DNA of 64,000 nt from Aliiroseovarius sp. PrR006 (lineage in GTDB: Bacteria > Pseudomonadota > Alphaproteobacteria > Rhodobacterales > Rhodobacteraceae), in assembly GCF_010500215.1 (NCBI RefSeq), contig NZ_JAAGOY010000007.1:776501-840500 (forward strand), written 5' to 3'. This document shows, piece after piece, positions 1 through 14,882 of the stretch. The first letter of the stretch is position 1; each line of letters begins with the position of its first letter. The position numbers were made by a program, and so were the translations under genes. The notes under the pieces are model-generated. The model was not told where the DNA came from, made no database searches, and saw only the letters and a program-made list of their open reading frames with translations.

Positions 1-777
1 GTCAACCTGCCTGCTGTCGAGACGGAAGCCGGTTCTGCTGGCACCCCGCTTCCCTTATCCGTTGAATATTTCGGCAACCTCGGCACATCGGAAACGCTGG
101 ACTTCAGCTTTACGCCTACCGTTCCAGGTACCGGATCTTCAAACACCTGGACGATGCAAATCACCGACAGCGCCTCGGGCGGGGCCGTGGTCGGAGAGTA
201 CACGCTGGTCTTTGATGACAGCCGCGCCGATGGCGGCACACTGGCCTCGGTCACGGTCGTATCCGGGGGTGCCTATGATGCCGCTGCGGGTACGCTGGAC
301 CTGACCGTTGCGGGAGGCCCCTTGTCGCTGACCATCGGCGGGATCGGAGACCCCAACGGTCTGACCCAGCTGTCTGACAGCTTTGCTCCGGTGGCCATCA
401 CCAAGAACGGCTCGCCGGTGGGCAACCTGACCGCAGTGCAGATCGACGAACACGGCTTCCTGAAAGCCACCTATGACACCGGGTTTATCCGCACGATCTA
501 TCAAGTGCCGCTGGTGGACGTGTCAAACCCGAATGGCCTGACATCGATCTCGAACCAAGCCTATCAGGTATCGCCAGAAAGCGGATCGTTCTTCATGTGG
601 GACGCTGGTGACGGCCCAACTGGCGAAGTCGTCGGCTTTGCGCGCGAGGGATCGACCACCGATGTCGCGGGCGAGCTGACCAACCTGATCCAAACCCAGC
701 GCGCCTATAGCTCGAATGCGAAGGTGATCCAGACCGTCGACGAGATGCTGCAGGAAACCACCAACATCAAACGCTGA
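1..777 (+). CDS. flgE: Flagellar hook protein FlgE, C-terminal part (5' end outside the window)
   Basis: The frame is open from base 1 to a TGA at 775-777, so 258 residues of the C-terminal half are present. The last 70 residues carry the conserved FlgE C-terminal domain: a hook segment starting SNPNGL, then the axial helix LTNLIQTQRAYSSNAKVIQT and the ending DEMLQETTNIKR. That helix packs in the D0 core of the hook, the universal joint between rod and filament. The gene is followed 24 bases later by flgK, and flgK-flgL-flgI continue on the same strand, so it is the upstream part of a flagellar operon. The N-terminal D0 domain cannot be judged here. Confidence 0.93.
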   Translation, partial: VNLPAVETEAGSAGTPLPLSVEYFGNLGTSETLDFSFTPTVPGTGSSNTWTMQITDSASGGAVVGEYTLVFDDSRADGGTLASVTVVSGGAYDAAAGTLDLTVAGGPLSLTIGGIGDPNGLTQLSDSFAPVAITKNGSPVGNLTAVQIDEHGFLKATYDTGFIRTIYQVPLVDVSNPNGLTSISNQAYQVSPESGSFFMWDAGDGPTGEVVGFAREGSTTDVAGELTNLIQTQRAYSSNAKVIQTVDEMLQETTNIKR

Positions 778-801
778 TCCGGCATTGTGAAGTAGCATCC
801 C

Positions 802-2259
802 ATGACCCTCAACAGCGCCCTTTACAACGCATTGACCGGCCTCAGCGCCAACGCGCGCTCGGCCCATGTCGTCTCGTCCAACGTCGCCAACGCGACGACG
901 GAAGGATATGGCGTGCGGTCGCTCAGCCTGTCATCGCGCACGCTGGGCGGCGCGCCATCAGGCGTTGTGATCGAGGGTGTCACCCGCCATGTGGACGAGC
1001 GCCTTTTGGGCGACCGCCGCCTTTCGGACGCCGCGCTGGGGCACGGAAGCGCGCGGTCGAGTTTTCTGGAAGGGTTGGAAAAGGCGATAGGCACCCCAGA
1101 TCAGCCAGGTTCGCTCACCGGTCGAATGGCGCAATTCGAGGCCGCCCTGATCGAAGCCGCCGCCCGTCCCGACAGTGAAGCGACCCTGAATGCCAGCCTG
1201 AACGCAGCCCGCAACGTCGTGTCACACCTGAAAGCCACGTCCGATCACATACAGAACGCGCGTCTGTCTGCAGATCAGGCGATTGCGCAAGAGGTCGATC
1301 AGCTTAATCAGGGCCTGAAGGACGTACAGGACCTGAACACCAAGATTCAGGCCGCAATCGTGCGCGGCGCGGATCCCTCGGGGCTGATGGACCAGCGGCA
1401 GCAGGCCATCGACGCACTGTCTTCGATCATCCCGATTAAACAGGTTCCGCGCGATGGGGGGCAGGTCGCCCTGATTTCAAGTGGCGGAGCCATTCTGCTG
1501 GATGGACGCGCGGCTGAGCTTGGGTTCTCGCCCGTCAACACAATCGTCCCCGAGATGACGCTGGGCAGTGGTGCCTTGTCTGGGCTGACCATTAACGGCC
1601 GGCCGATTGACACCACAACCGACCGCAACGCGATCTCGGGCGGTTCACTGGCGGCTCATTTTCAGATCCGCGACGATCTGGCGGTGACCGCACAGGAACA
1701 GCTTGATGCCTTTGCCCGCGATTTTGTTGAACGATTTCAGGATCCAGCTCTTGACGCGACACGTGCGCCGGGAGCCCCAGGCCTGTTTACAGATGCCGGG
1801 GCGGCATTCGATCCGGCAGATGAGGTTGCCCTCAGCAGCCGATTATCCCTGAACGCCGCTGTGGATCCAACACAAGGCGGCGCGGTTTGGCGGCTGCGTG
1901 ACGGACTTGGCGCCGCGGTGCCGGGCAATGTCGGCAACGCCACGCTTCTTGGCCAGCTGGTCGACGCGTTGGACGCTCCGAAAGTTGCCTCTTCAGGTGG
2001 ATTCTCGGGCGCGGCGCGATCCTCGGCGGGCTTGGCGTCAGATTTACTGAACACAGTCGCCGCGAATCTTGAGCACAGCGAGGCACAGCTCAGCTTTGAC
2101 CTCGCTCAGAATGACAGCCTGAGAGAGATGGAGCTGGCGCAAGGCGTGGATACCGATGCCGAAATGCAAAAGCTAATGATCATCGAACAGGCCTTCGCCG
2201 CCAACGCTCAGGTGGTCACTGCCGCCGATGAAATGCTGCAACTTCTGTTAGGTATGTAG
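802..2259 (+). CDS. flgK: Flagellar hook-filament junction protein FlgK (HAP1)
   Basis: A 485-residue protein, somewhat shorter than enterobacterial FlgK (about 547). The N-terminus has the flagellar rod/hook signature (LYNALTGLSANARSAHVVSSN, broken here as residues 6-26) and the C-terminus the paired axial helix ending EQAFAANAQVVTAADEMLQ, as in all hook-associated axial proteins. The missing length is in the variable central domain. FlgK caps the hook and joins it to FlgL and the flagellin filament. ATG at 802 has only a weak Shine-Dalgarno sequence, which fits translational coupling to flgE upstream. flgL starts 10 bases after its stop. Confidence 0.95.
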   Translation: MTLNSALYNALTGLSANARSAHVVSSNVANATTEGYGVRSLSLSSRTLGGAPSGVVIEGVTRHVDERLLGDRRLSDAALGHGSARSSFLEGLEKAIGTPDQPGSLTGRMAQFEAALIEAAARPDSEATLNASLNAARNVVSHLKATSDHIQNARLSADQAIAQEVDQLNQGLKDVQDLNTKIQAAIVRGADPSGLMDQRQQAIDALSSIIPIKQVPRDGGQVALISSGGAILLDGRAAELGFSPVNTIVPEMTLGSGALSGLTINGRPIDTTTDRNAISGGSLAAHFQIRDDLAVTAQEQLDAFARDFVERFQDPALDATRAPGAPGLFTDAGAAFDPADEVALSSRLSLNAAVDPTQGGAVWRLRDGLGAAVPGNVGNATLLGQLVDALDAPKVASSGGFSGAARSSAGLASDLLNTVAANLEHSEAQLSFDLAQNDSLREMELAQGVDTDAEMQKLMIIEQAFAANAQVVTAADEMLQLLLGM

Positions 2260-2269
2260 GGGGCACGGG

Positions 2270-3280
2270 ATGAGCATCTCCACTTTTGGCGACCTGGCCA
2301 GCACATTCTTGACCCGGCGACACAGCACGCAATTGCGGCAAGAGATGACGCGGCTCAGCACCGAGCTGTCTACCGGGCGCAAAACCGATCTGGGGGCGAA
2401 CACGACGGGCGGCTACGGTGCAATCGCTGGGCTTGAACACAGCCTCAAGCTGATGTCCTCACATGCGCAAGCCACGAACGAGGCGCGGCTGATGGCGGAG
2501 ACCACGCAGGTCGCACTCACCACGATTCACACACAGGCGCAGGACCTCTCAACCGGGTTGATCGCGGCGCGCAGCGCAAACAACGTGACCATGCTGCAAA
2601 CGACCGCGCTGGACGCGGAACAGAAGTTTGCCTCGATCATTTCAAAGCTGAACGCAGGTGCAGGGGGGCGGTCGCTTTTCGCAGGGGCTGCAACCGATGG
2701 TCCCGCCCTTGCTGACGCCGACACGATCATCACCGAACTGATGACCGCCATCTCGGGCGAAGTTACGGCCGCGGGTGTTTCGTCTGCCATCGACGACTGG
2801 TTCAACACGCCCGGCGGCGGATTTGATACGCTGGGCTATCAGGGGGCGGACGAAAGCTATGGCCCCATTCGGTTGGGCAATGGCGAAACTGCCACCCTGC
2901 CCGTCCGCGCCAATGACCCCGAGATACGCACCCTTCTGGCTGCCGTCGCCAAAACAGTAGTGCTGGCTGAAGGCGCGCTTTCCGGTGATCTGGACCAACA
3001 GAAATCCCTGGCCGAAATGTCGTCAAACGCCCTTCTCAGCGCGGTCGATGACACCACGATGCTGCAAGCGCGGGTCGGCGCCGTGGAGGCGCGGATCGAA
3101 AATGCGGTGGCGCATAACACAGCCGAACAGCATTCGTTGGAGCTGTCCTATAATGAACTGACCGCCGCAGACCCCTTCGATACTGCCGCACGGCTGGAAG
3201 AGCTCTATAGCCAGCTCGAGGCGCTCTACACCACCACCGCGCATCTCTCGAAACTCAGCTTCACGGATTACATGCGATGA
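2270..3280 (+). CDS. flgL: Flagellar hook-filament junction protein FlgL (HAP3)
   Basis: A 336-residue flagellin-like protein. The N-terminal helix has the FlgL pattern (TRRHSTQLRQEMTRLSTELSTG, residues 14-35) and the C-terminal part is a long amphipathic helix ending in AARLEELYSQLEALYTTTAHL (residues about 307-327), with a flagellin-type coiled-coil periodicity. FlgL is the second junction protein and contacts the first flagellin subunits. AGGGGG lies 6 bases before ATG 2270. The stop codon overlaps the flgI start (ATGA), so the two are translationally coupled. Flagellin itself is not in this window; a FlgL rather than flagellin call rests on the position between flgK and flgI. Confidence 0.92.
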   Translation: MSISTFGDLASTFLTRRHSTQLRQEMTRLSTELSTGRKTDLGANTTGGYGAIAGLEHSLKLMSSHAQATNEARLMAETTQVALTTIHTQAQDLSTGLIAARSANNVTMLQTTALDAEQKFASIISKLNAGAGGRSLFAGAATDGPALADADTIITELMTAISGEVTAAGVSSAIDDWFNTPGGGFDTLGYQGADESYGPIRLGNGETATLPVRANDPEIRTLLAAVAKTVVLAEGALSGDLDQQKSLAEMSSNALLSAVDDTTMLQARVGAVEARIENAVAHNTAEQHSLELSYNELTAADPFDTAARLEELYSQLEALYTTTAHLSKLSFTDYMR

Positions 3281-4380
3281 AACACCTGTTTGCCTGCCTG
3301 ATTGCGCTTTTTGCCCTAACCGCCGCCGCCCATGCGAACTCGATCCGCATCAAGGATCTGGTGGAATTCGACGGCGTGCGCGGCAACGACCTTGTCGGCT
3401 ACGGGCTGGTTGTCGGACTGAATGGCACGGGCGACGGTATCCGCAACGCGCCTTTCACCGAAGACATCATGTCGAATATTCTGGAACGGCTGGGTGTGAA
3501 CATCACCGGCGAACAGTTCCGCCCCAAGAATGTCGCTGCGGTGTTCGTCACGGCATCGCTTCCACCGTTCGCACGTTCTGGGTCTCGGATCGACGTGACG
3601 GTATCGGCAATTGGGGACGCGAAAAGTCTGCTGGGCGGCACATTGATCATGACCCCGCTGAATGCCGCAGATGGCGAGATCTATGCCGTCGGACAGGGAA
3701 CCGTGATCGCGGGTGGAGCAACCGCCGAAGGCGATGGGGCCAAAGTTACCCGGGGCGTGCCCACCAGCGGCGTGATCCCCAGCGGCGCGCGCGTTGAGCA
3801 AGAAATTGACTTTGATTTCACCAAGCTGAAATCCATCCGGCTGGCCCTGCGCACACCTGATTTCACCACCGCCGAACGGATCGAGCGGGCCATTAACGGA
3901 AAGTATGGCCGTGTCGTGTCGCGCATGCTGGACAGCGGCACTGTTGTGGTCGACATCACTGCAACGCGTGCGATCTCTCCCGCGCATGCGTTGGGCACCA
4001 TAGAAAACATCGGGGTCGAACCGGAAAGGCGCGCCAAGGTGGTGGTCGATCAGCGGTCAGGAACCATCGTAATGGGAGAAGATGTACGGATCAGCCGGGT
4101 AGCTGTGTCGCAAGGCAACCTTACCTTGCGCATTCAAGAGCAGCCCATCGTGGTGCAGCCCAACCCGTTCTCGGACGGCGAGGCCATCGTGGTGCCGCGC
4201 ACCAATGCCGCGATCGAGGAAGAGCCGGGCATCGGACTGGCCGAGGTTAGTGGAGGGGCGTCTCTGTCCGAACTCGTCGCAGGGCTAAACGCGTTAGGCG
4301 TGGCGCCGCGCGACATGATCGATATCTTGAAAAGCATCAAGGCCGCCGGGGCGCTTCATGCCGAGTTCATCGTGCGCTAG
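3277..4380 (+). CDS. flgI: Flagellar P-ring protein FlgI
   Basis: A 367-residue protein close to the usual 365. It starts with a Sec signal peptide (KHLFACLIALFALTAAAHA, cleavage after about residue 20) and continues with the FlgI signature SIRIKDLVEFDGVRGNDLVG and GYGLVVGLNGTGDG. The C-terminal part has the conserved PRDMIDILKSIKAAGALHAE. FlgI polymerises in the periplasm around the rod at the peptidoglycan layer. The start ATG overlaps the flgL stop. This is the last gene of the operon: the next gene runs the other way and ends 9 bases later. Confidence 0.97.
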   Translation: MKHLFACLIALFALTAAAHANSIRIKDLVEFDGVRGNDLVGYGLVVGLNGTGDGIRNAPFTEDIMSNILERLGVNITGEQFRPKNVAAVFVTASLPPFARSGSRIDVTVSAIGDAKSLLGGTLIMTPLNAADGEIYAVGQGTVIAGGATAEGDGAKVTRGVPTSGVIPSGARVEQEIDFDFTKLKSIRLALRTPDFTTAERIERAINGKYGRVVSRMLDSGTVVVDITATRAISPAHALGTIENIGVEPERRAKVVVDQRSGTIVMGEDVRISRVAVSQGNLTLRIQEQPIVVQPNPFSDGEAIVVPRTNAAIEEEPGIGLAEVSGGASLSELVAGLNALGVAPRDMIDILKSIKAAGALHAEFIVR

Positions 4381-6280: not shown

Positions 6281-7183
6281 TCAACGCTTGCGCCGCATCT
6301 GCCGAAACAGCGCGGTGGTGTAGACGATCAGCGCCAGCCAGATCAGCGGGAACGCGATCAGCTTGGCGCCTCCAAACGGCTCGCGGAAGATAAAGACCGC
6401 CACAAGGAAGATCATCGTCGGTGCGATGTATTGCAGGATGCCAATGGTCGATAGGCGCAGCAGTTTCGCACCGTTGGCATAGACCATCAGCGGCACGGCA
6501 GTGACCAGTCCGCAACCCATCAACAGCAGCGTGTCGCCGGTCGAGGTGAACAGATGCCCCTGCCCGGTGGCCCCAAGCCAGATAACATAGGCCAACGCAG
6601 GTGGCGTCAGGATCAGAACCTCAAGAAGGAAACCCTGATTGGGACCGATAGGGAGTGATTTTTTGAAATAGGCGTAGAACCCCCAAGTCAACATCAGGCC
6701 CAGCGCAACCATGGGCAGCCGACCCGCATCCACGGTCAGGACGATCACAGCCAAAGCCGCCAGAAACACCGCCACCCACTGCGCGCGCGACAGACGCTCG
6801 CCCAACAGGACAGCCCCCATCACGATCGAAAAAAGCGGGTTGATGTAATAGCCCAGCGCGGCCTCGACCGTCTGCTCGGCACCAATCGCCCAGATATAAA
6901 TGCCCCAATTGACCGAAATCAGCGTTGCCGTCACCAAGGCCAGCAGCAGGCTGCGACGGTCGGTTAGAACGGCTTTAATGTCACGCGTGCGCCCCATGGC
7001 GATCAGCACCGCGCCGGCAACGGGCACGGACCAGATCACGCGATGCGCCAGCACCTCGGTCGCGGGCATGTGGATCAGAAGCTTCAGGTAGAGCGGCAGG
7101 AATCCCCACAGCACATAGGCGGTGATCGCAAAGGCAAGCCCTTGCGGCGTATCCACATTTTCCGGTTTTGATGTCACTGCCAT
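6281..7183 (-). CDS. rarD: RarD-type EamA/DMT transporter
   Basis: A 300-residue membrane protein with about ten hydrophobic segments and two EamA halves. The N-terminal part (YVLWGFLPLYLKLL, then HRVIWSVP near residue 50) and the GYYINPLFSIVMGAVLLGE segment near residue 130 are typical of the RarD subfamily of drug/metabolite exporters. The substrate is unknown; chloramphenicol sensitivity gave the family its name. GAGGAG sits 6 bases before ATG 7183. It is followed directly by rluA on the same strand. Confidence 0.88.
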   Translation of the reverse strand: MAVTSKPENVDTPQGLAFAITAYVLWGFLPLYLKLLIHMPATEVLAHRVIWSVPVAGAVLIAMGRTRDIKAVLTDRRSLLLALVTATLISVNWGIYIWAIGAEQTVEAALGYYINPLFSIVMGAVLLGERLSRAQWVAVFLAALAVIVLTVDAGRLPMVALGLMLTWGFYAYFKKSLPIGPNQGFLLEVLILTPPALAYVIWLGATGQGHLFTSTGDTLLLMGCGLVTAVPLMVYANGAKLLRLSTIGILQYIAPTMIFLVAVFIFREPFGGAKLIAFPLIWLALIVYTTALFRQMRRKR

Positions 7184-7274
7184 ATCGCGCTCCTCACCCA
7201 GCCTTTATGCAGGCCGGATGAGAGGTTGGATAGCGTGAATGTCGTGACGCGATGTATCACGTTTCGTGATGGCA

Positions 7275-9722
7275 TCAGACCTTGGCGCGCTCACCTTTCG
7301 GGTCGTACATCGGCTTCAAGGATGCTTCGGCTTTCACGCGGGTGCCCGCCACGTCGATCTCGTAGCTCGACGCTAGTACATCCGCAGCCGTTTCGCCCTT
7401 ACACGGCACGTAACCCATGCCCATCGCGGCCCCCAGATGGTGCCCGTAGGACCCCGAGCTGAGGAAGCCCACGATCTCGCCATCACGAATGACGGGTTCG
7501 TTGTGATAGAGTAGTGGCTCGGGATCGGTCAGCTTGAACTGGACCATGCGGTTTTCCAGCCCGCTTTCCTTCTTGGCCAGCACGGCGTCGCGCCCGACGA
7601 AATCCGGTTTATCGGTCTTCACCGCAAAGCCAAGCCCGGCTTCCAGCACGTGATCTTCACAGGTGATGTCGTGGCCGAAGTGGCGAAAGCCCTTTTCGAT
7701 CCGGCAGCTGTCCATCATATGCATTCCGCACAGCTTCAGCCCCATGTCCTGCCCGGCTTCATGCAGTGTCTCAAAGACATGCCCCGTCATATCGGCAGAT
7801 GCATAGATCTCCCACCCAAGTTCGCCGACATAGGTTACGCGGTGGGCGCGGGCTAGGCCCATGCCAATCTCGATTTCCTGCGCGGTGCCGAAGGGGTTGG
7901 TGGCGTTGGTGAAGTCGTTCGGGCTGACTTTTTCCAGCAATTTCCGTGCGTTCGGCCCCATCACGGCCAAGACACCTTCGCCCGCGGTCACATCGGTGAT
8001 CACAACGCTGAAGTCGCCCACATGGCGCTGCATCCATGTCTGGTCGGCCAGACGCGTGGCAGCGGGGGTGACGACCAGATAGGCGGTCTCGGTCAGGCGG
8101 GTGACGGTCACGTCGGCCTCGATCCCGCCGCGACGGTTCAGGAATTGGGTATAGACGATCTTGCCATTCGGCACCGAGTAATCGCCGCCGCCGACATAGT
8201 TCATAAACGCTTCGGCATCCGGGCCTTCGACACGGATTTTGCCGAAGGAGGACATGTCATACATGCCCACATTCTCGCGGATGGCCTTGTGTTCGGCTGC
8301 CGAGTTTTCGAACCAGTTCGGACGGCCCCACGTGTATTCGTACTCGGGTTTCTGACCTTCATTGGCAAACCAGTTGGCGCGCTCCCAACCTGCGAGTTCG
8401 CCAAAGACTGCGCCCTGTTCCTTCAGGTGATGATGGAATGGGGTCCGGCGGACGCCACGTGCGGTGGCTTTCTGGCGGAACGGGAAGTGGTCGGCATAGA
8501 GCAGGCCCAACGTCTCTTTCGAGCGCTCAAACAGGTAGTGCTTGTTGCCCTGGAACGGCTGCATCCGGCTGATGTCGACGTCGCCTAGATCGAAGGGTTT
8601 GTCGCCGTCCTCCATCCACTGCGCCAGCGCCATGCCCGCGCCACCCGCCGACTGAATGCCGATCGAGTTGAAGCCCGCCGCGACCCAGACATTGTCCATC
8701 TCGGGCGCGAGGCCAAGGTGATAGGCGTCGTCCGGCGTGAAGCTTTCCGGGCCGTTGAAGAAGGTGTGGATGCCAGCCTCGGCCAGCATGGGCATACGAT
8801 TACAGGCGTTTTCCAAGATCGGCTCAAAATGGTCGAAATCCTCGGGCAGCTGGTCGAACTCGAACGTGTCGGCAATGCCGTTCATGCCCCACGGCTTGGC
8901 GTTGGGTTCAAACGCGCCCAGCAGCATCTTGCCCGCGTCTTCCTTGTAATAGGCGCATTCGTCCGGCACGCGCAGCACCGGCATTTGTGTCAGGTTCGGA
9001 ATGGCTTCGGTCACGATATAGAAGTGCTCACACGCGTGAAGGGGCACGTTGACGCCTGCCATGCGACCTACCTCGTGGCCCCACATACCCGCGCAGTTCA
9101 CGATCATGTCGCAGGCGATGTGGCCTTGTTCTTTCCCGTCGTCCGAGGCCCAATCGACACCCGTCACCTTTCGCCCGTCGCGCTGGATGCCTGTGACTTT
9201 GGTGCGCTCTTTGACGATCGCACCCTTTTGGCGCGCACCCTTGGCCAAAGCCAGCGCGATGTTGGCCGGGTCGCCTTGCCCGTCTTTCGGCAGCCAGACG
9301 CCGCCGACAACACCGTCGATGTTCAGGTGTTCATAACGCGACAGCGCTTCTTCGGCGGTGATTTCTTCCACGTCCACGCCAAAGGCGCGGGCCATGGCGG
9401 CCTGACGGGCCAGTTCTTCCATCCGCTCAGTGGTCAGCGCCACGCTGATCGAACCCACACGTTTGAAGCCGGTGGCGACACCCGTTTCAGCCTCAAGATC
9501 GCCATAGAGCTCCTGCGAGTATTTCGCCAGCTTCGTCATGTTCGCCGTCGCGCGCAGCTGGGCAATCAGACCGGCGGCATGCCATGTGGTGCCGGATGTC
9601 AGCTGCTTGCGTTCAAGCAGCACCACATCTTTCCAGCCAAGCTTGGTCAGGTGATAAGCGACAGAGCAGCCGATAACGCCGCCACCGATAATGACAACGC
9701 GGGCTTGTATGGGCAGGGACAT
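7275..9722 (-). CDS. FAD-dependent dimethylglycine/sarcosine dehydrogenase-type enzyme with GcvT domain (paralogue 1)
   Basis: An 815-residue two-domain enzyme from ATG 9722, chosen because AAGGAG lies 7 bases upstream; an extra 18 residues upstream are not conserved. Residues 1-420 form a D-amino-acid-oxidase-like FAD domain with the dinucleotide motif VVIIGGGVIG (9-18). The segment SGTTWHAAG contains His48, at the place where FAD is covalently bound to histidine in mammalian dimethylglycine dehydrogenase. Residues about 430-815 are GcvT and GcvT-C domains that transfer the methyl carbon to tetrahydrofolate. It should oxidatively demethylate an N-methylated glycine. A paralogue of the same length lies upstream in the operon. 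The exact substrate cannot be read from sequence. Confidence 0.85.
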   Translation of the reverse strand: MSLPIQARVVIIGGGVIGCSVAYHLTKLGWKDVVLLERKQLTSGTTWHAAGLIAQLRATANMTKLAKYSQELYGDLEAETGVATGFKRVGSISVALTTERMEELARQAAMARAFGVDVEEITAEEALSRYEHLNIDGVVGGVWLPKDGQGDPANIALALAKGARQKGAIVKERTKVTGIQRDGRKVTGVDWASDDGKEQGHIACDMIVNCAGMWGHEVGRMAGVNVPLHACEHFYIVTEAIPNLTQMPVLRVPDECAYYKEDAGKMLLGAFEPNAKPWGMNGIADTFEFDQLPEDFDHFEPILENACNRMPMLAEAGIHTFFNGPESFTPDDAYHLGLAPEMDNVWVAAGFNSIGIQSAGGAGMALAQWMEDGDKPFDLGDVDISRMQPFQGNKHYLFERSKETLGLLYADHFPFRQKATARGVRRTPFHHHLKEQGAVFGELAGWERANWFANEGQKPEYEYTWGRPNWFENSAAEHKAIRENVGMYDMSSFGKIRVEGPDAEAFMNYVGGGDYSVPNGKIVYTQFLNRRGGIEADVTVTRLTETAYLVVTPAATRLADQTWMQRHVGDFSVVITDVTAGEGVLAVMGPNARKLLEKVSPNDFTNATNPFGTAQEIEIGMGLARAHRVTYVGELGWEIYASADMTGHVFETLHEAGQDMGLKLCGMHMMDSCRIEKGFRHFGHDITCEDHVLEAGLGFAVKTDKPDFVGRDAVLAKKESGLENRMVQFKLTDPEPLLYHNEPVIRDGEIVGFLSSGSYGHHLGAAMGMGYVPCKGETAADVLASSYEIDVAGTRVKAEASLKPMYDPKGERAKV

Positions 9723-9806
9723 GACATCACTCCTTGATGGATTCGGGTCGAAACTTGCACGCGGCGCGGCGACCAAACATCTTGTTTCCGCCAGAATTGA
9801 CGGAAA

Positions 9807-10775
9807 TTAGCTATTATAGGCGGGCAAGTTTCCGGTCTTGCGCAGCGACATGGGAGTCACGCCGAAATGGCGACGGAACAGCGACGAGAACCCGTTGGGA
9901 AAACCACAGGCCAGCCCGACGTCGCGCACGCTCATCGCGGTTTTCATAAGTAGGGTATTGGCGTGATTGAGGCGCAGCTCACGATAATAGGCGTTGGGTG
10001 TGGTGTGGAAATGCGCGCGGAAATGGCGCTCCAGCGAACGTTCGGAGATCCCCAGCAGCGCGACCAATTCCGAGATGCGCAGAGGCTCTTCCAGATTGGC
10101 CTGCATCAACTCTACACATTGGTCCAGTGCGCGGTTCCCGGTCAAAGAAAGCTCTTTCCCACCAAAGGGCTGCAGGGTCGAGAATGTGCGGATTTTCTCG
10201 TGCAGCATGATGTCCGCCACCGTTGCGACCGAGGCCGCGGACAGGTGGCTGCCCAACAGCGCCAGCACAAGATCATGGGTCGATCCCATCCCGGCGGAGG
10301 TGATGATCCGTCCATCATCAGCCACCAGCGCATAAGACCCGACGCCGGGCGTGCCGCGTTCGTTCAGAACGGCGCGGTTTTCCCAGTGGGTGGTGTGGCT
10401 CATCGTTTGCTCGCCCGTTTCGGCGATGTGGCGGCTGGCGGCTTCGGAGAGCAGGATTACGCGGGCGCCGGCCCATTGATAAGCCTTGATTTCCTTTTGC
10501 AGCGACAGCTCTTTCGCGTCCGGGTCAGAATTGCCCAGCACGAAGACGTAGTGCGCCGACGGCCTTGCGCGGAAGGGCTGTGTGGCCACGTCGATCCCCG
10601 CGCGGCAACGGATATCTCCGCCATGGCGTGACAGGTTTTGCCAGCGAAACACCTCGCGCGCGGTGACGCGGTTGGCGATGCGCAGAAGTTCAAGAATGGC
10701 GGACAATTCGGTCAAGACGAAACCGTCTGACATCAGGATGTCGACCTGAACGGGATGTTGGATCATGTCCTTCAT
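9807..10775 (-). CDS. GlxA-family (DJ-1/PfpI plus AraC HTH) transcriptional regulator
   Basis: A 322-residue protein. Residues about 10-180 have the DJ-1/PfpI-like ligand-binding fold seen in GlxA, GbdR and CdhR-type regulators. Residues about 215-315 are an AraC double helix-turn-helix (ISELVALLGISERSLERHFR, then MSVRDVGLACGFPNGFSSLFRRHFG). Relatives often control carnitine, glycine betaine or other quaternary-amine catabolism, which fits its place between two dimethylglycine-dehydrogenase-like genes on the same strand. GGAAGGAA precedes ATG 10775. It probably activates the cluster in response to a methylated amine; that is inference. Confidence 0.87.
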   Translation of the reverse strand: MKDMIQHPVQVDILMSDGFVLTELSAILELLRIANRVTAREVFRWQNLSRHGGDIRCRAGIDVATQPFRARPSAHYVFVLGNSDPDAKELSLQKEIKAYQWAGARVILLSEAASRHIAETGEQTMSHTTHWENRAVLNERGTPGVGSYALVADDGRIITSAGMGSTHDLVLALLGSHLSAASVATVADIMLHEKIRTFSTLQPFGGKELSLTGNRALDQCVELMQANLEEPLRISELVALLGISERSLERHFRAHFHTTPNAYYRELRLNHANTLLMKTAMSVRDVGLACGFPNGFSSLFRRHFGVTPMSLRKTGNLPAYNS

Positions 10776-10799
10776 CGTCTGTTCCTTCCCTGTTGGTGG

Positions 10800-10825
10800 C
10801 CCCGCGCATCTTGGCGCGCGCGGGG
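10800..10825 (-). terminator. GC-rich hairpin between dehydrogenase paralogue 2 and the GlxA regulator
   Basis: CCCCGCGC at 10800-10807 pairs with GCGCGGGG at 10818-10825. In the direction of the operon (minus strand) no T-run follows, so it would be an attenuating or mRNA-stabilising hairpin rather than a full terminator. A T-run follows only in the plus direction. Confidence 0.45.
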
Positions 10826-10840
10826 CGGTTTTTCATGCGA

Positions 10841-13288
10841 TCAGGCGCGCAAACGCTCGTTTGCCGGATCCCACAGCGGTTGATCTTCCTGCACCACGGC
10901 TTTGAACTTCTCGCCGTAGATTTCGACCTCAAGCTCGGTGCCGGGGGTGGCCAGTTCGGTGCGGACCATGCCCAGCGCGATCGACTTGTTCACGCGATGG
11001 CCCCACCCGCCCGAGGTGGTTTCGCCGACGATTTCGTCGCCCGACCAGATGCAGGACATATAGGGCGCGTCTGCGTCGCCAGCCTCGACCGTCAGGGTAA
11101 CGAAGGATTTCTTCACGCCCTGCTGCATCTCGTTCTGGATTGCGGCCTTGCCCGGGAAGTCCTGTGGCTTGTCCAGCTTGACGAAACGGCCAAGCCCGCC
11201 TTCCAGCAGCGAGTAATCCGTCGACAGATCGCCCTTCCACGCGCGATAGCCTTTTTCCAGACGCAGGCTGTTCAGGGCATACATGCCGAACGGCTTGGCG
11301 CCACCAGCGACGATCGCGTCATAGATCGCGGGCATGTCTTCGTTCAGCGCGTGGACCTCCCAGCCCAGTTCGCCTGCGAAGGACACGCGCACCAGATGCG
11401 CGGGTTTGCCAGCGACGGTCGCCGCCTGATGGGTCAGCCAACCGAGGCTTAGGTCCGCATCCGACATGCCAGCCAGCAGATCGCGCGACTTCGGTCCGGT
11501 TACGATCAGCGTGTCGCGGGTGGTGGTGAAATCCTCGACCGAGACAGTCGCGGGCATCGCTTGCACCAGAATGTCGCGGTCATGCCACTGCGCGGTGGCA
11601 GCGGTGATCATGACAAAATCATCTTCGCCCAGACGCATGCACGACATCTCGGTCAGGATGCGGCCGCGATTGTCGGCTATGTAGACCAGATTGATGCGAC
11701 CGATCTTTGGCAGGCCACCGGTGACCAGACCACGCAGTGCCTCGGCGGCACCCTCGCCCTTCACGACAAAGCGCGAGAAGCCCGGCAGGTCCAGAACGCC
11801 TACGCCATCCCGCACCGCTTCGCATTCTTCCTTGATGCGTTGCTCCCACGGGCCAGAGCGGCCCCAAGTGTGCGTGCCTTCTTCCGAGGTATCGTCGCCG
11901 TCTTGCGCAAACCAGTTGGCACGTTCCCAACCGTTATAGGCCCCCATGACGCCGCCAGCAGCAATCACGCGATCATGCACGGGTGACAGTTTCTTGTCGC
12001 GCGCGGCGGGCCATTCGTGGTGGGGGAAGTGCATGGCGTATTCGTTGCCATAGACCTCCATCCCTTTCTGGTCGCAATATTCCTGATCGGTGTAGTCGGT
12101 GTAGCGGCGCGGATCGACCGCCCACATATCCCACTCGGTCGCGCCATCGACGATCCATTCCGCCATGACCTTCCCAGCGCCACCACCTTGGGCGATGCCG
12201 AAGGTGAAGACACATGCCTCGAACGCGTTTTCGACGCCGGGCATCGGACCCATTAGGGGCAGACCGTCAGGGGCATAGGGGATCGGGCCGTTGATCACGC
12301 TGGACACACCCGAGGTCTCCATCAGTGGTACGCGGGCCATGGCGTCGACGACGATATCCTCGATCCGGTCCAGATCTTCCTGCCACAGCTGGAAGCTGAA
12401 ATCGTCGGGCATCTTGTCTTCATCGCCGATCCAGTGGGCCTTACAGTTCGGCTCGTACGGGCCAAGGTTATAGCCGTGCTTTTCCTGACGCAGGTAATAA
12501 GACACGTCCACGTCGCGGATCAGGGGCAGCTTGCCGCCGTGCTCTTTGGACCACGCTTCGATCTCGGGGATCTGTTCGGTCAGCAGATACTGGTGCTCCA
12601 TCACCATCATCGGCACGGTGCGGCCACCATAAGGCTTGAACCACTCACCGACACGCTGGGCATAATAACCGGCGGCGTTCACCACATAGTCACATTCGAT
12701 ATCGCCCTTCTCGGTGTGCACGATCCACGTCTTGTCTTCCTTCTGGGTGACGCCTGTCGCCGGGGTGAAACGCAGGATTTTCTGCCCCAGATCGCGCGCG
12801 CCTTTGGCCATCGCTTGGGTGACCTGAGCCGGATCGATGTCACCGTCCGACGGATCCCACAGCACACCGGCCAGATCATGCGTTTCAAGGAACGGATAAC
12901 GTTCTTTCGCTTGTTCGGGCGTCCACATCTCCATCTCGATGCCCTGATACCGGCCCATCGAGCACGCGCGTTCAAATTCCTGCATCCGCTCTTCGGTGTG
13001 GGCCAGACGGATCGAGCCGGTCTGATGGTAGTTCATTGGATAGTCGACCTCTTCGCCCAGACGCGAATACAGCTCGGTCGAATAGCGCTGCATATTCATG
13101 ATCGCCCAGCTGGTCGAGAACGTCGGCACGTTGCCCGCCGCGTGCCAGGTGGACCCTGCCGTCAGCTCGTTCTTTTCAAGCAGCACACAATCGGTCCAGC
13201 CCTTCAGGCCAAGGTGATACAGCGTCGAGGCGCCGACAACACCGCCGCCGATGATAACGACGCGTGCTTTGGTGGGAAAATCAGACAT
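10841..13288 (-). CDS. FAD-dependent dimethylglycine dehydrogenase-type enzyme with GcvT domain (paralogue 2)
   Basis: An 815-residue protein with the same architecture and length as the neighbour at 7275-9722, but clearly diverged in sequence. The FAD motif VVIIGGGVVG is at residues 10-19 and AGSTWHAAG contains His49, the candidate covalent FAD site. GcvT domains fill the second half (WERANWFAQDGDD near residue 455, GELGWEVHALN near 650). It should demethylate N,N-dimethylglycine or a related compound and pass the one-carbon unit to tetrahydrofolate. GGAG lies 6 bases before ATG 13288, and the GFA gene ends 23 bases upstream, so they are likely one transcript. Confidence 0.87.
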   Translation of the reverse strand: MSDFPTKARVVIIGGGVVGASTLYHLGLKGWTDCVLLEKNELTAGSTWHAAGNVPTFSTSWAIMNMQRYSTELYSRLGEEVDYPMNYHQTGSIRLAHTEERMQEFERACSMGRYQGIEMEMWTPEQAKERYPFLETHDLAGVLWDPSDGDIDPAQVTQAMAKGARDLGQKILRFTPATGVTQKEDKTWIVHTEKGDIECDYVVNAAGYYAQRVGEWFKPYGGRTVPMMVMEHQYLLTEQIPEIEAWSKEHGGKLPLIRDVDVSYYLRQEKHGYNLGPYEPNCKAHWIGDEDKMPDDFSFQLWQEDLDRIEDIVVDAMARVPLMETSGVSSVINGPIPYAPDGLPLMGPMPGVENAFEACVFTFGIAQGGGAGKVMAEWIVDGATEWDMWAVDPRRYTDYTDQEYCDQKGMEVYGNEYAMHFPHHEWPAARDKKLSPVHDRVIAAGGVMGAYNGWERANWFAQDGDDTSEEGTHTWGRSGPWEQRIKEECEAVRDGVGVLDLPGFSRFVVKGEGAAEALRGLVTGGLPKIGRINLVYIADNRGRILTEMSCMRLGEDDFVMITAATAQWHDRDILVQAMPATVSVEDFTTTRDTLIVTGPKSRDLLAGMSDADLSLGWLTHQAATVAGKPAHLVRVSFAGELGWEVHALNEDMPAIYDAIVAGGAKPFGMYALNSLRLEKGYRAWKGDLSTDYSLLEGGLGRFVKLDKPQDFPGKAAIQNEMQQGVKKSFVTLTVEAGDADAPYMSCIWSGDEIVGETTSGGWGHRVNKSIALGMVRTELATPGTELEVEIYGEKFKAVVQEDQPLWDPANERLRA

Positions 13289-13311
13289 TAAGGTCTCCGT
13301 CTTTCTTGGTG

Positions 13312-13689
13312 TTACTGCGCGCTTTGCGGCAGGCCATCGGCAATTTCGTAATAGTCGCCCTTGTCAGCGACAAAGATGTGCTTTTCCAAGGTCAGCCCAG
13401 TGGGGCCATCGACCGCGCCCAATGCAAAACTGATCGTATCCTCGTCATGGGCTTTCCAGAATAGGAAGGACCCGCAGGTCGGGCACGACCCGCGCTTGGC
13501 CGTGTCGCTGGCCGCGTACCACGACACGTCGCCTGTGATGGTCAGTTCGGCTTCCGGTACGAAGGCCGAGGACCAGATGCCGCCCGATTGCTTGCGGCAT
13601 TGGCTGCAATGGCACATCGAGGCACCTTCCGGCGTCGCGTCGGTCGAAAACGTGATGGCTCCGCACAGGCAGTTTCCTTTGATCATCAT
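13312..13689 (-). CDS. GFA (glutathione-dependent formaldehyde-activating/CENP-V) family protein
   Basis: A 125-residue zinc protein. It has the GFA cysteine pattern: GNCLCGAITF near the N-terminus, MCHCSQCRKQSGG (residues about 26-38), and a third site SCPTCGSFLFW near residue 70. Founding members were reported to help formaldehyde condense with glutathione. Here it sits between the XRE regulator and two demethylating dehydrogenases whose leakage product is formaldehyde, so a protective role is plausible. Many GFA-fold proteins have other or unknown activity. ATG 13689 has a GGGGG upstream; the alternative ATG is one codon later. Confidence 0.83.
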   Translation of the reverse strand: MMIKGNCLCGAITFSTDATPEGASMCHCSQCRKQSGGIWSSAFVPEAELTITGDVSWYAASDTAKRGSCPTCGSFLFWKAHDEDTISFALGAVDGPTGLTLEKHIFVADKGDYYEIADGLPQSAQ

Positions 13690-13696
13690 CGCCCCC

Positions 13697-14275
13697 TTAA
13701 TAGACCGGCGGCGCGATCACCCAGATCGCAACGGCCGGTTCGTCATAGGGGTTCGCCCAGTCATAGGTTTCGTGCTTGATGCGGAAACTGTCGCCAGTTT
13801 GGACCGTGAAGCTGCGCCCGCCGATGGTTAGGTCCAGCTTGCCGGACACTATATAGCCGACCTCTTGCGTGGGACGGCTAGCAGGGGTTTGCATCTTTGA
13901 ATGTGGCTCGAAGGTCGAGTGCACCATCTCGAAATCGTCGGTCAGGTCGGGGGACAAAAGCTCCTCGATCAGCCCTTCGTGGCCCGCACCCATTGGGCGG
14001 CGATTGCCCGCCCGCACGATCCGCCCCTGCTCGCCCGCGGGCGAGGATTTGTGCGCGAAGAGAAGCGACATGGGCACGCCTAGCGCTTCGGCGATCGCGC
14101 GCAGGTCGGAAATCGAGGGTTCGGATTTGTCACGCTCGACTTGGCTGAGCCACCCGATGGACCGGCCCAAGGCGTCCGCCAGATCCGAGATCGTCATGCC
14201 ACGCGATTTGCGCAAGGCCCGCAGATCAGCCCCCAGACTTGTCCGGTGCAGGTTCTGTGGATCGCTGTGTAGCAT
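13697..14275 (-). CDS. XRE-family regulator with C-terminal cupin domain
   Basis: A 192-residue protein with an N-terminal XRE helix-turn-helix (residues about 14-70: LGADLRALRKSRGMTISDLA, then GWLSQVERDKSEPSISDL). The C-terminal cupin domain covers residues about 110-190 (EVGYIVSGKLDLTIGG, TVQTGDSFRI). Such proteins sense small molecules through the cupin and often repress nearby catabolic genes. It is the first gene of the minus-strand run that includes the GFA and dehydrogenase genes, 7 bases before GFA. GGAGG lies 4 bases before ATG 14275, and a perfect palindrome 23 bases upstream is a good candidate for its own operator. Confidence 0.9.
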   Translation of the reverse strand: MLHSDPQNLHRTSLGADLRALRKSRGMTISDLADALGRSIGWLSQVERDKSEPSISDLRAIAEALGVPMSLLFAHKSSPAGEQGRIVRAGNRRPMGAGHEGLIEELLSPDLTDDFEMVHSTFEPHSKMQTPASRPTQEVGYIVSGKLDLTIGGRSFTVQTGDSFRIKHETYDWANPYDEPAVAIWVIAPPVY

Positions 14276-14297: not shown

Positions 14298-14312
14298 CGT
14301 GAAATTTTCACG
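14298..14312. promoter_or_regulatory. 15-bp perfect palindrome ahead of the XRE-cupin regulator
   Basis: CGTGAAA and TTTCACG flank a single central T. The site lies 23 bases upstream of the regulator start and next to a run of seven T. Its symmetry and position fit an autoregulatory operator for the XRE protein. No protein binding can be shown from sequence. Confidence 0.55.
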
Positions 14313-14429: not shown

Positions 14430-14882
14430 CTAACGCGCGAAGGTGTCCGACAGGATTTTCGCCAACGCGTCAGCGTCATCTTGCGTGAATGCGGCGGGCT
14501 GGTCGCTATCGATATCCAGCACCGCAATCAGCACGCCATCGGCGTTCCAGACCGGCAACACGACTTCGGATCGCGTCGAAGATGCACAGGCGATGTGCCC
14601 GGGAAAGGCGTCGACATCAGCGACCAACTGCACCTCGCCGGTGCGCGCCGCCGCACCACACACCCCGCGCGAAAACGGGATTTGCAGACATCCATGCCCG
14701 CCCTGATAGGGTCCGATCTTCAGCATCTCGGGTTCCGTCACGCGATAGAAACCTGTCCAGTCGAACCGATCATCGGCGTGATGCAGCTCACACGTGACAG
14801 TGGCCATCAGGGCGACCTCGTCGGTCTCTCCTTCCGTCAAGGATGCGATGATCTGGGCGGTCTCGGCGTAGTTGATCTTCAT
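14430..14882 (-). CDS. msrC: Free methionine-(R)-sulfoxide reductase (GAF domain, fRMsr)
   Basis: A 150-residue single GAF-domain protein. Three cysteines, Cys65, Cys75 and Cys99, have the same spacing (10 and 24) as the catalytic and resolving cysteines 84, 94 and 118 of E. coli MsrC, in the segments HGCLQIPFSRGVCG and PGHIACASS. It should reduce free methionine-(R)-sulfoxide with thioredoxin as reductant. ATG 14882 is preferred because GGAAG lies 5 bases upstream; a TTG four codons earlier is possible. It stands downstream of the thiolase gene on the same strand, with a strong hairpin terminator between them. Confidence 0.9.
   Translation of the reverse strand: MKINYAETAQIIASLTEGETDEVALMATVTCELHHADDRFDWTGFYRVTEPEMLKIGPYQGGHGCLQIPFSRGVCGAAARTGEVQLVADVDAFPGHIACASSTRSEVVLPVWNADGVLIAVLDIDSDQPAAFTQDDADALAKILSDTFAR

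Follow-up and report, generated by a model that had tools for sequence, protein, structure and literature searches.

A linked pair of FAD/GcvT N-demethylase genes in Aliiroseovarius sp. PrR006 and its predicted role in dimethylglycine and sarcosine demethylation

Introduction

A 64,000-nucleotide stretch of the genome of Aliiroseovarius sp. PrR006, a member of the Roseobacter group (contig NZ_JAAGOY010000007.1, positions 776,501 to 840,500; hereafter the window) carries on its minus strand a run of five genes, two of which encode large fusions of a flavin adenine dinucleotide (FAD) enzyme with a GcvT-type half, here called DH2 and DH1. We suggest, at a probability of roughly 0.62, that these are consecutive, tetrahydrofolate (THF)-dependent and covalently flavinylated N-demethylases, DH2 converting dimethylglycine to sarcosine and DH1 converting sarcosine to glycine; the substrates and the order of the steps are what we infer here. 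The cluster is an ordinary example of a published type and is mostly known, its exact substrates being unproven; what this analysis adds is the strength of the linkage and its exceptions, a list of partner genes, a likely operator, and a conflict over which dimethylglycine paralogue is the induced one.

Glycine betaine serves widely in the sea as an osmolyte and nutrient. How roseobacters carry out its first demethylation was established only in 2025, in work that still calls the dimethylglycine and sarcosine steps 'predicted' (PMC12478193). Other betaine gene sets have also been proposed (PMC3160333, PMC7574528). The genome holds six candidate enzymes, and the old linked pair together with a near-universal paralogue, P3, narrows the matter of which enzyme takes which step to three genes.

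Results

The five genes of the run, listed from its head, are as follows.

13697 to 14275, minus strand: XRE-cupin regulator, first gene of the run (192 amino acids; HTH_31, HTH_3, Cupin_2)
13312 to 13689, minus strand: small protein of the CENP-V/GFA family, function unassigned (125 amino acids; PF04828, 77.5 bits)
10841 to 13288, minus strand: DH2, FAD/GcvT N-demethylase, predicted dimethylglycine to sarcosine step (815 amino acids; DAO, FAO_M, GCV_T, GCV_T_C)
9807 to 10775, minus strand: GlxA/GbdR-like AraC-family regulator, inside the operon (322 amino acids; HTH_18)
7275 to 9722, minus strand: DH1, FAD/GcvT N-demethylase, predicted last step, sarcosine to glycine (815 amino acids; DAO, FAO_M, GCV_T, GCV_T_C)

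DH1 and DH2 each carry DAO, FAO_M, GCV_T and GCV_T_C in one chain (Pfam), the fusion of the dimethylglycine dehydrogenase (DMGDH) and dimethylglycine oxidase (DMGO) type. Relatives of solved structure span most of each chain. The FAD-type histidine of the TWHAAG motif, which we take to be the same residue as His91 of human DMGDH, aligns at His49 in DH2 and His48 in DH1, the covalent bond itself being predicted. In the human enzyme FAD is bonded to His91, and His225 and Tyr259 form the catalytic dyad of DMGO (PMC5082570). Aligned His and Tyr residues stand at the dyad positions in all 29 rows of our alignment, including DH2 (His232 and Tyr265) and DH1 (His233 and Tyr258). The acid at the position of DMGO Asp552, presumably a folate-site residue, is kept as Asp537 in DH1, as in DMGO, and as Glu547 in DH2, as in the mammalian enzymes; 3gsi has Ala where DMGO (1pj5) has Asp552. 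Because these catalytic and folate-site residues are kept in both enzymes, methylene transfer to THF is the expected route.

Linkage of the two genes was assessed in one genome per genus across 120 genera of the family, with DH1 counted at 60% identity or more; a second DH2 match in genome G086 (43% identity), DH1 matches at 43–51% and a second DH1 piece in G078 were left out of the counts. DH2 occurs in 71 genera and DH1 in 75, with both present in 69, DH1 without DH2 in six, and DH2 without DH1 in two. In 63 of the 69 genomes with both, the two genes share a contig and a strand, with DH2 5–3565 nucleotides upstream of DH1 (fewer than 200 in 19). The remaining six have the genes on different contigs, and two of these are undecided, DH2 sitting at a contig end (G005, G008). 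The linkage is strong, holding in 63 of 67 decidable genomes, and these counts therefore mark DH2-DH1 as an old linked pair and conserved core to which the regulators, the GFA gene and the other genes are accessories. On plasmids, 15 records carry a 60–80% DH2 match, and DH1 is directly adjacent in 13 of them, among the 25 of 181 DH1 records listed.

Three further arrangements were seen. Contig C8 of genome G086 (157170–161990) carries a diverged tandem on one strand, a DH2-like gene (43%) and, directly after it, one resembling DH1 (47%); this may be a sister module that acts on a different substrate. On plasmid 1 of P. denitrificans (L152, 9989–12439 and 19673–22433), DH1 is accompanied by a divergently oriented XRE gene and has no DH2 next to it; sarcosine oxidase genes and a GlxA regulator lie some 7 kb away. 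In S. meliloti Ak57 (L153, 14445–16776) the DH2 and MttB-family genes are intact, DH1 appears between them as two overlapping frames, and the gene table of the plasmid does not list DH1.

A GCV_T search of the whole genome gave 11 places: six DMGDH-like fusions (DH1, DH2 and the paralogues P3 to P6), two SoxA-sized proteins of about 1000 amino acids at two loci, one GcvT-sized protein, one open reading frame of 408 amino acids and one weak match. We take the 408-residue frame to be DmdA-like, judging by its place beside an acuI-like gene. The genome also has three PF06253 (MttB) genes. DH1 and DH2 are indeed distinct paralogues, as had been proposed: they are 34% identical and fall in opposite halves of a quick tree (one that came with long-branch warnings), DH1 grouping with P6, so the pair is not a recent duplication. 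Two features singled out by the original prediction do not set the pair apart. The TWHAAG histidine is present in both enzymes and the motif is present in all six fusions, and the equal length of 815 amino acids is real; the six as called span 804–834 amino acids, lengths that depend on the gene caller's starts, with the start codon of the 804-residue protein unsure. We therefore rejected the equal length as a clue and the motif as a clue to substrate. As the FAD histidine, dyad and folate acid are found in all six, they mark chemistry and not substrate, and the residues that could be placed do not allow a choice of substrate from sequence alone.

P3 is encoded at 7844–10348 of locus L023 (G000:C4:1360847–1363348) as a DMGDH-like fusion, with what we take to be a GcvH-like gene about 5.6 kb away. 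P5 (L025, 9424–11838) presumably has Rieske-like and enolase-superfamily-like neighbours and looks to us like part of a proline-betaine (stachydrine) pathway. P6 (L025, 17237–19696, with L026), whose neighbours we take to be CoA-ligase-like, aldehyde-dehydrogenase-like and tricarboxylate-type transporter genes, perhaps belongs to a methylated sulfonate pathway.

Against mammalian DMGDH, DH2 scores highest of the six (563.9 bits), by a small margin over P3 (542.5) and P4 (541.3), and is followed further down by P5 (483.1), P6 (465.7) and DH1 (458.6). Against A. globiformis DMGO (1pj5) the highest score is that of DH1 (417.8 bits), the others reaching at most 338.5 and DH2 299.7. The second comparison, with the folate-site Asp that DH1 shares with DMGO, could be taken to mean that the order is reversed, DH1 acting on dimethylglycine and DH2 on sarcosine, or that both take both; the six of 120 genera with DH1 and no DH2, and the sox genes some 7 kb from DH1 on P. 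denitrificans plasmid 1, point the same way. We consider this quite unlikely, however, since mammalian DMGDH is matched better by DH2 than by DH1, since DH2 stands by MttB or homocysteine S-methyltransferase in three of four genomes with DH1 elsewhere, and since the published names run the other way: in Ruegeria pomeroyi, SPO3400 was named dimethylglycine dehydrogenase and SPO3396 sarcosine dehydrogenase, within the choline pathway (PMC4744692), and these are the apparent orthologues of DH2 and DH1, respectively.

Genes around the pair were tallied in two sets of relatives. The near loci, crowded with Ruegeria, were taken as the 80 best among 526 relatives; 77 of the 80 were counted and three without DH1 in the locus were dropped (L033 and L062, which are short contigs, and L092, a full locus with DH2 by MttB and no DH1). 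The 20 diverse loci were hand-picked from the 63 genomes with linked genes, and in 15 the gap is below 200 nucleotides, so that their fractions are not family estimates; all were screened by tblastn, gene calling being empty in L124 and L131 and poor in L122, L126 and L135. A gene was scored as near when it lay within 3.5 kb of the pair on the same strand (either strand for LysR) with at least half of the query matched.

The near loci have XRE-cupin in 76, GFA in 67, AraC in 64, GAF, homocysteine S-methyltransferase and LysE in 63 each, and MDR in 46 of the 77, with MttB near the pair in none. Among the 20 diverse loci the tally is MttB 11, LysR 7, XRE 6, homocysteine S-methyltransferase 4, LysE 2, GAF 2 and GFA 1, and by tblastn neither AraC nor MDR is near the pair in any. 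Loci L128, L129 and L132 share the order LysR, DH2, DH1, MttB, aldehyde dehydrogenase, HIBADH-like. Homocysteine S-methyltransferase is absent by the pair in 14 of the 77 near loci, including seven of Aliiroseovarius (L030, L031, L032, L034, L049, L050, L076), and is present by the pair in A. subalbicans (L094). The three PF02574 proteins of the window genome are about 24–29% identical to the nine cluster copies of homocysteine S-methyltransferase that were compared.

More distant pairs have informative partners. In Rhizobium ruizarguesonis and Agrobacterium vitis the neighbours comprise an ABC transporter, the beta and alpha genes of electron-transferring flavoprotein (ETF), ETF-QO, folD, purU, an XRE or cupin gene and an aminotransferase, and in Paracoccus seriniphilus they comprise cupin genes, ETF beta, folD and purU. 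The ETF, FolD and PurU partners fit a dehydrogenase that hands methyls to THF. In S. meliloti an MttB-family gene lies beside the pair; in Neorhizobium a Rieske gene does (best model GbcA, 257 bits, below the 670 cut-off), and a carnitine 3-dehydrogenase gene (889, cut-off 592) lies about 6 kb away on the other strand. These MttB, carnitine and Rieske neighbours fit glycine betaine.

The window genome has an MttB orthologue 70–77% identical to the copy near the diverse pairs. It also encodes a corrinoid protein resembling MtgC, which at 197.5 bits falls short of the cut-off of 370, and a protein of the MtgE/BHMT type, which at 603.7 exceeds its cut-off of 338. At locus L113 we take a DUF1638-like gene to lie beside MtgC-like and MtgE/BHMT-like genes. 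The latter two stand together there (6650–10631), resembling the split methionine synthase/betaine system of PMC12478193.

Within the run itself, the gene order and limits given in the original prediction are confirmed, and it had correctly noted the absence of soxBDAG and betaine transporter genes from the run; SoxA-type and MttB genes lie elsewhere in the genome. The intergenic gaps from head to end are short (7, 23, 65 and 84 nucleotides), making a single transcript plausible. For DH1 we adopt the ATG at 9722, which gives 815 amino acids, because AAGGAG directly precedes it; the longest open reading frame, from an upstream TTG, would give 833. Promoter-like sites number 2 (2.2 expected) and terminator-like sites 9 (6.7 expected). 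The five closest relatives of DH2 are all from Aliiroseovarius, at 97–98% identity.

Three further features lie upstream of the run.

14298 to 14312, minus strand: palindrome CGTGAAA-N-TTTCACG, candidate XRE operator, 22 nucleotides from the XRE start codon
14352 to 14385, minus strand: interrupted inverted repeat GCCTGA-N2-ACGAC-N8-GTCGT-N2-TCAGGC, a second candidate for an operator, or a stem; mostly conserved across the six aligned sequences
14430 to 14882, minus strand: GAF protein, by structure matches of the free methionine-R-sulfoxide reductase type; neighbours the run on its upstream side at 154 nucleotides

The palindrome is kept in all six Aliiroseovarius sequences aligned, perfectly in four and with a single terminal base altered in two. 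In 66 of 79 loci the best match upstream of the XRE gene has 0–3 mismatches of 14; among 1475 control windows drawn from these loci, 16 do so. The loci are related, and the comparison is therefore not a probability. Many loci have it about 60 nucleotides upstream, in the form CTTGGAANTTTCACG. The natural reading is that this is a candidate operator of the XRE protein; its function as such, like the coupling to ETF in this species, we infer. Written as a pattern the motif is CGTGAAANTTTCACG, and at up to two mismatches the other stretches scanned from this genome held no further copy of the palindrome (a match in L009 is the same site). The AraC-family regulator scores 153.4 bits against the GbdR model NF052371, below its cut-off of 480, so we rejected an assignment as GbdR and regard it as a relative only.

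The GAF protein matches the methionine-R-sulfoxide reductase 3mmh, YebR (1vhm) and YKL069W (1f5m), its best match being 5hl6, a putative GAF sensor. Together with the homocysteine S-methyltransferase and LysE genes of relatives, it hints at a possible side-link to methionine.

The GFA protein had been expected to deal with formaldehyde freed by leaky or uncoupled turnover. Its gene does accompany the pair in 67 of the 77 near loci. The idea is nevertheless very improbable, and we dropped it: the protein scores 20.4 bits against TIGR02820 (S-(hydroxymethyl)glutathione synthase; cut-off 234.55), it is poorly conserved, with the gene by the pair in only one of the 20 diverse loci, and the folate-site residues are kept in DH1 and DH2. 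Its best solved relative is 8ajq, a CENP-V/GFA domain protein.

Discussion

We propose the following scheme. The first methyl group of glycine betaine would be removed by enzymes encoded elsewhere, the MttB-family MtgB with the corrinoid protein MtgC. DH2 would then oxidise dimethylglycine to sarcosine, and DH1 sarcosine to glycine. In each enzyme the His/Tyr dyad and FAD would oxidise the N-methyl group, the methylene would pass to THF in the GcvT half, and the electrons would probably leave via ETF. The XRE-cupin protein probably regulates the run through the palindrome just before its own start codon. Of this scheme, the sequence itself shows the domains, the key residues, the linkage, the partners in the genomes and the conservation of the palindrome.

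A different first step, by the homocysteine S-methyltransferase found within related clusters, was considered and set aside. SPO3398 is such an enzyme in R. pomeroyi (PMC4809877), where mutants show that MtgC and MtgD are required for betaine use and where an mtgC mutant makes no use of betaine even with methionine (PMC12478193). This role is unlikely in R. pomeroyi because the mtgC mutant fails on betaine although SPO3398 should be present.

Several observations weigh against the assignment of DH2 and DH1 to dimethylglycine and sarcosine. P3 is found in 111 of the 120 sampled genera, and the two SoxA-type loci of the genome could take sarcosine. In strain MED193 a protein annotated 'DMGDH' (MED193_19144) is raised on phosphatidylcholine and under phosphate starvation (PMC10132767), along with further proteins of the glycine betaine-to-glycine route (same paper). 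Using phnJ (MED193_17624, at 3,057,875) and betC (MED193_21676, at 3,893,141) as anchors, linear interpolation, which assumes evenly spaced locus tags, puts MED193_19144 at about 3,371,000, inside a fusion gene at 3,369,541–3,372,030, while DH2 of MED193 is at 2,488,411; a choline-binding protein (weak matches only) and glutamine synthetase (eight matches) were tried as anchors and went unused. That fusion is 91% identical to P3 of the window genome. We therefore rejected MED193_19144, the one induced 'DMGDH' with a locus tag that came to our notice, as evidence for DH2, and the induced protein appears to be the orthologue of P3. The main dimethylglycine enzyme may be P3, or P3 and the pair may both work.

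The literature and the gene neighbourhoods add to this side of the balance. The 'predicted' dimethylglycine and sarcosine steps are induced in the 2025 work, in a text that gives no locus tags for them (PMC12478193). In the accessible literature on SPO3396–SPO3401 and on roseobacter XRE/cupin proteins with these enzymes we found no test of the cluster; the accessible text of PMC4744692 contains none of SPO3400 or SPO3396, and that of PMC11306105 nothing on these genes. DH2 and DH1 are truly apart in four of the 69 genomes (G044, G053, G089, G109), where the contig continues for 30 kb or more downstream of DH2. An aminotransferase gene follows the pair in Rhizobium and Agrobacterium, the Rhizobium copy scoring 714.8 against the AptA model (cut-off 500), and the P. 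seriniphilus pair comes after a taurine-type binding protein that scores 165.8, short of its cut-off of 304.25, with xsc near. The omega-aminotransferase and taurine-type neighbours leave room for other dimethyl amino acids.

The four genomes with separated genes also bear on the order of steps. The neighbour of DH2 is MttB at L092 and L154 and homocysteine S-methyltransferase at L156; by DH2 in the fourth (L155) none of the query genes was found. DH2 standing alone beside such a gene in three of four fits its place as the step after the first.

These points can be assembled into other readings. The pair might demethylate another N,N-dimethyl amino acid, such as N,N-dimethyl-beta-alanine or N,N-dimethyltaurine, with P3 as the housekeeping dimethylglycine dehydrogenase; the breadth of P3 and its identification, by tag interpolation, with the phosphatidylcholine-induced MED193 protein (PMC10132767) would suit this, as would the AptA-type aminotransferase of Rhizobium and the taurine-type protein and xsc of P. 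seriniphilus. We judge it unlikely, given that genes of the MttB family, for carnitine 3-dehydrogenase and for a GbcA-like Rieske protein lie near the pair and that DH2 ranks first, by a small margin, against mammalian DMGDH. More broadly, the pair could conceivably be a tandem module of general use for demethylating N,N-dimethyl amino acids, which bacteria join to varied enzymes for the first step (MttB, a Rieske oxygenase and perhaps homocysteine methyltransferase) and for finishing (omega-aminotransferase, Xsc). The roseobacter substrate would then be a betaine other than glycine betaine and P3 the true dimethylglycine dehydrogenase; this too we regard as doubtful.

Dimethylglycine and sarcosine are thus named here as the leading substrate pair. 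Of the earlier proposal that the two enzymes act on these as successive substrates, successive demethylation is well supported by the linkage in 63 of 69 genomes and by the ETF, FolD, PurU, MttB and carnitine context, while the substrates are unproven, the MED193 'DMGDH' mapping to another paralogue. It is because that induced protein maps to P3, and P3 occurs in 111 of 120 genera, that we hold the full assignment at the probability given at the outset.

Comparison with known systems

The closest published counterpart is SPO3396–SPO3400 of R. pomeroyi, whose published tags, compared as tags, fit the order DH2-MDR-homocysteine S-methyltransferase-AraC-DH1 of roseobacter loci such as L036 and L101. 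The window shares its basic arrangement, with DH2 upstream of DH1 on one strand and within a few kilobases, but lacks the MDR and homocysteine S-methyltransferase genes, the latter being absent between DH2 and DH1.

The MtgBCDE glycine betaine/methionine system (PMC12478193) would supply dimethylglycine to the pair, and in the deeper branches an MttB-family gene lies near the pair. Genes for the later demethylations are frequently located close to mtgBCD in marine bacteria other than R. pomeroyi (PMC12478193). In the window genome, by contrast, the MttB and MtgC/MtgE-like genes lie elsewhere and not by the pair.

With mammalian dimethylglycine dehydrogenase (4p9s, 4pab, 5l46) the enzymes share a long match, the domain order, the FAD histidine and the His/Tyr dyad, and DH2 shares the folate-site Glu; the window differs in having two paralogues in one run and, in DH1, an Asp at the folate site. 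DH1 in turn keeps the positions of A. globiformis dimethylglycine oxidase (1pj5) for the FAD-type histidine (chain residue 48), His225, Tyr259 and Asp552. The A. globiformis enzyme is an oxidase, whereas the presence of ETF genes by the pairs of the rhizobia and P. seriniphilus suggests dehydrogenases here.

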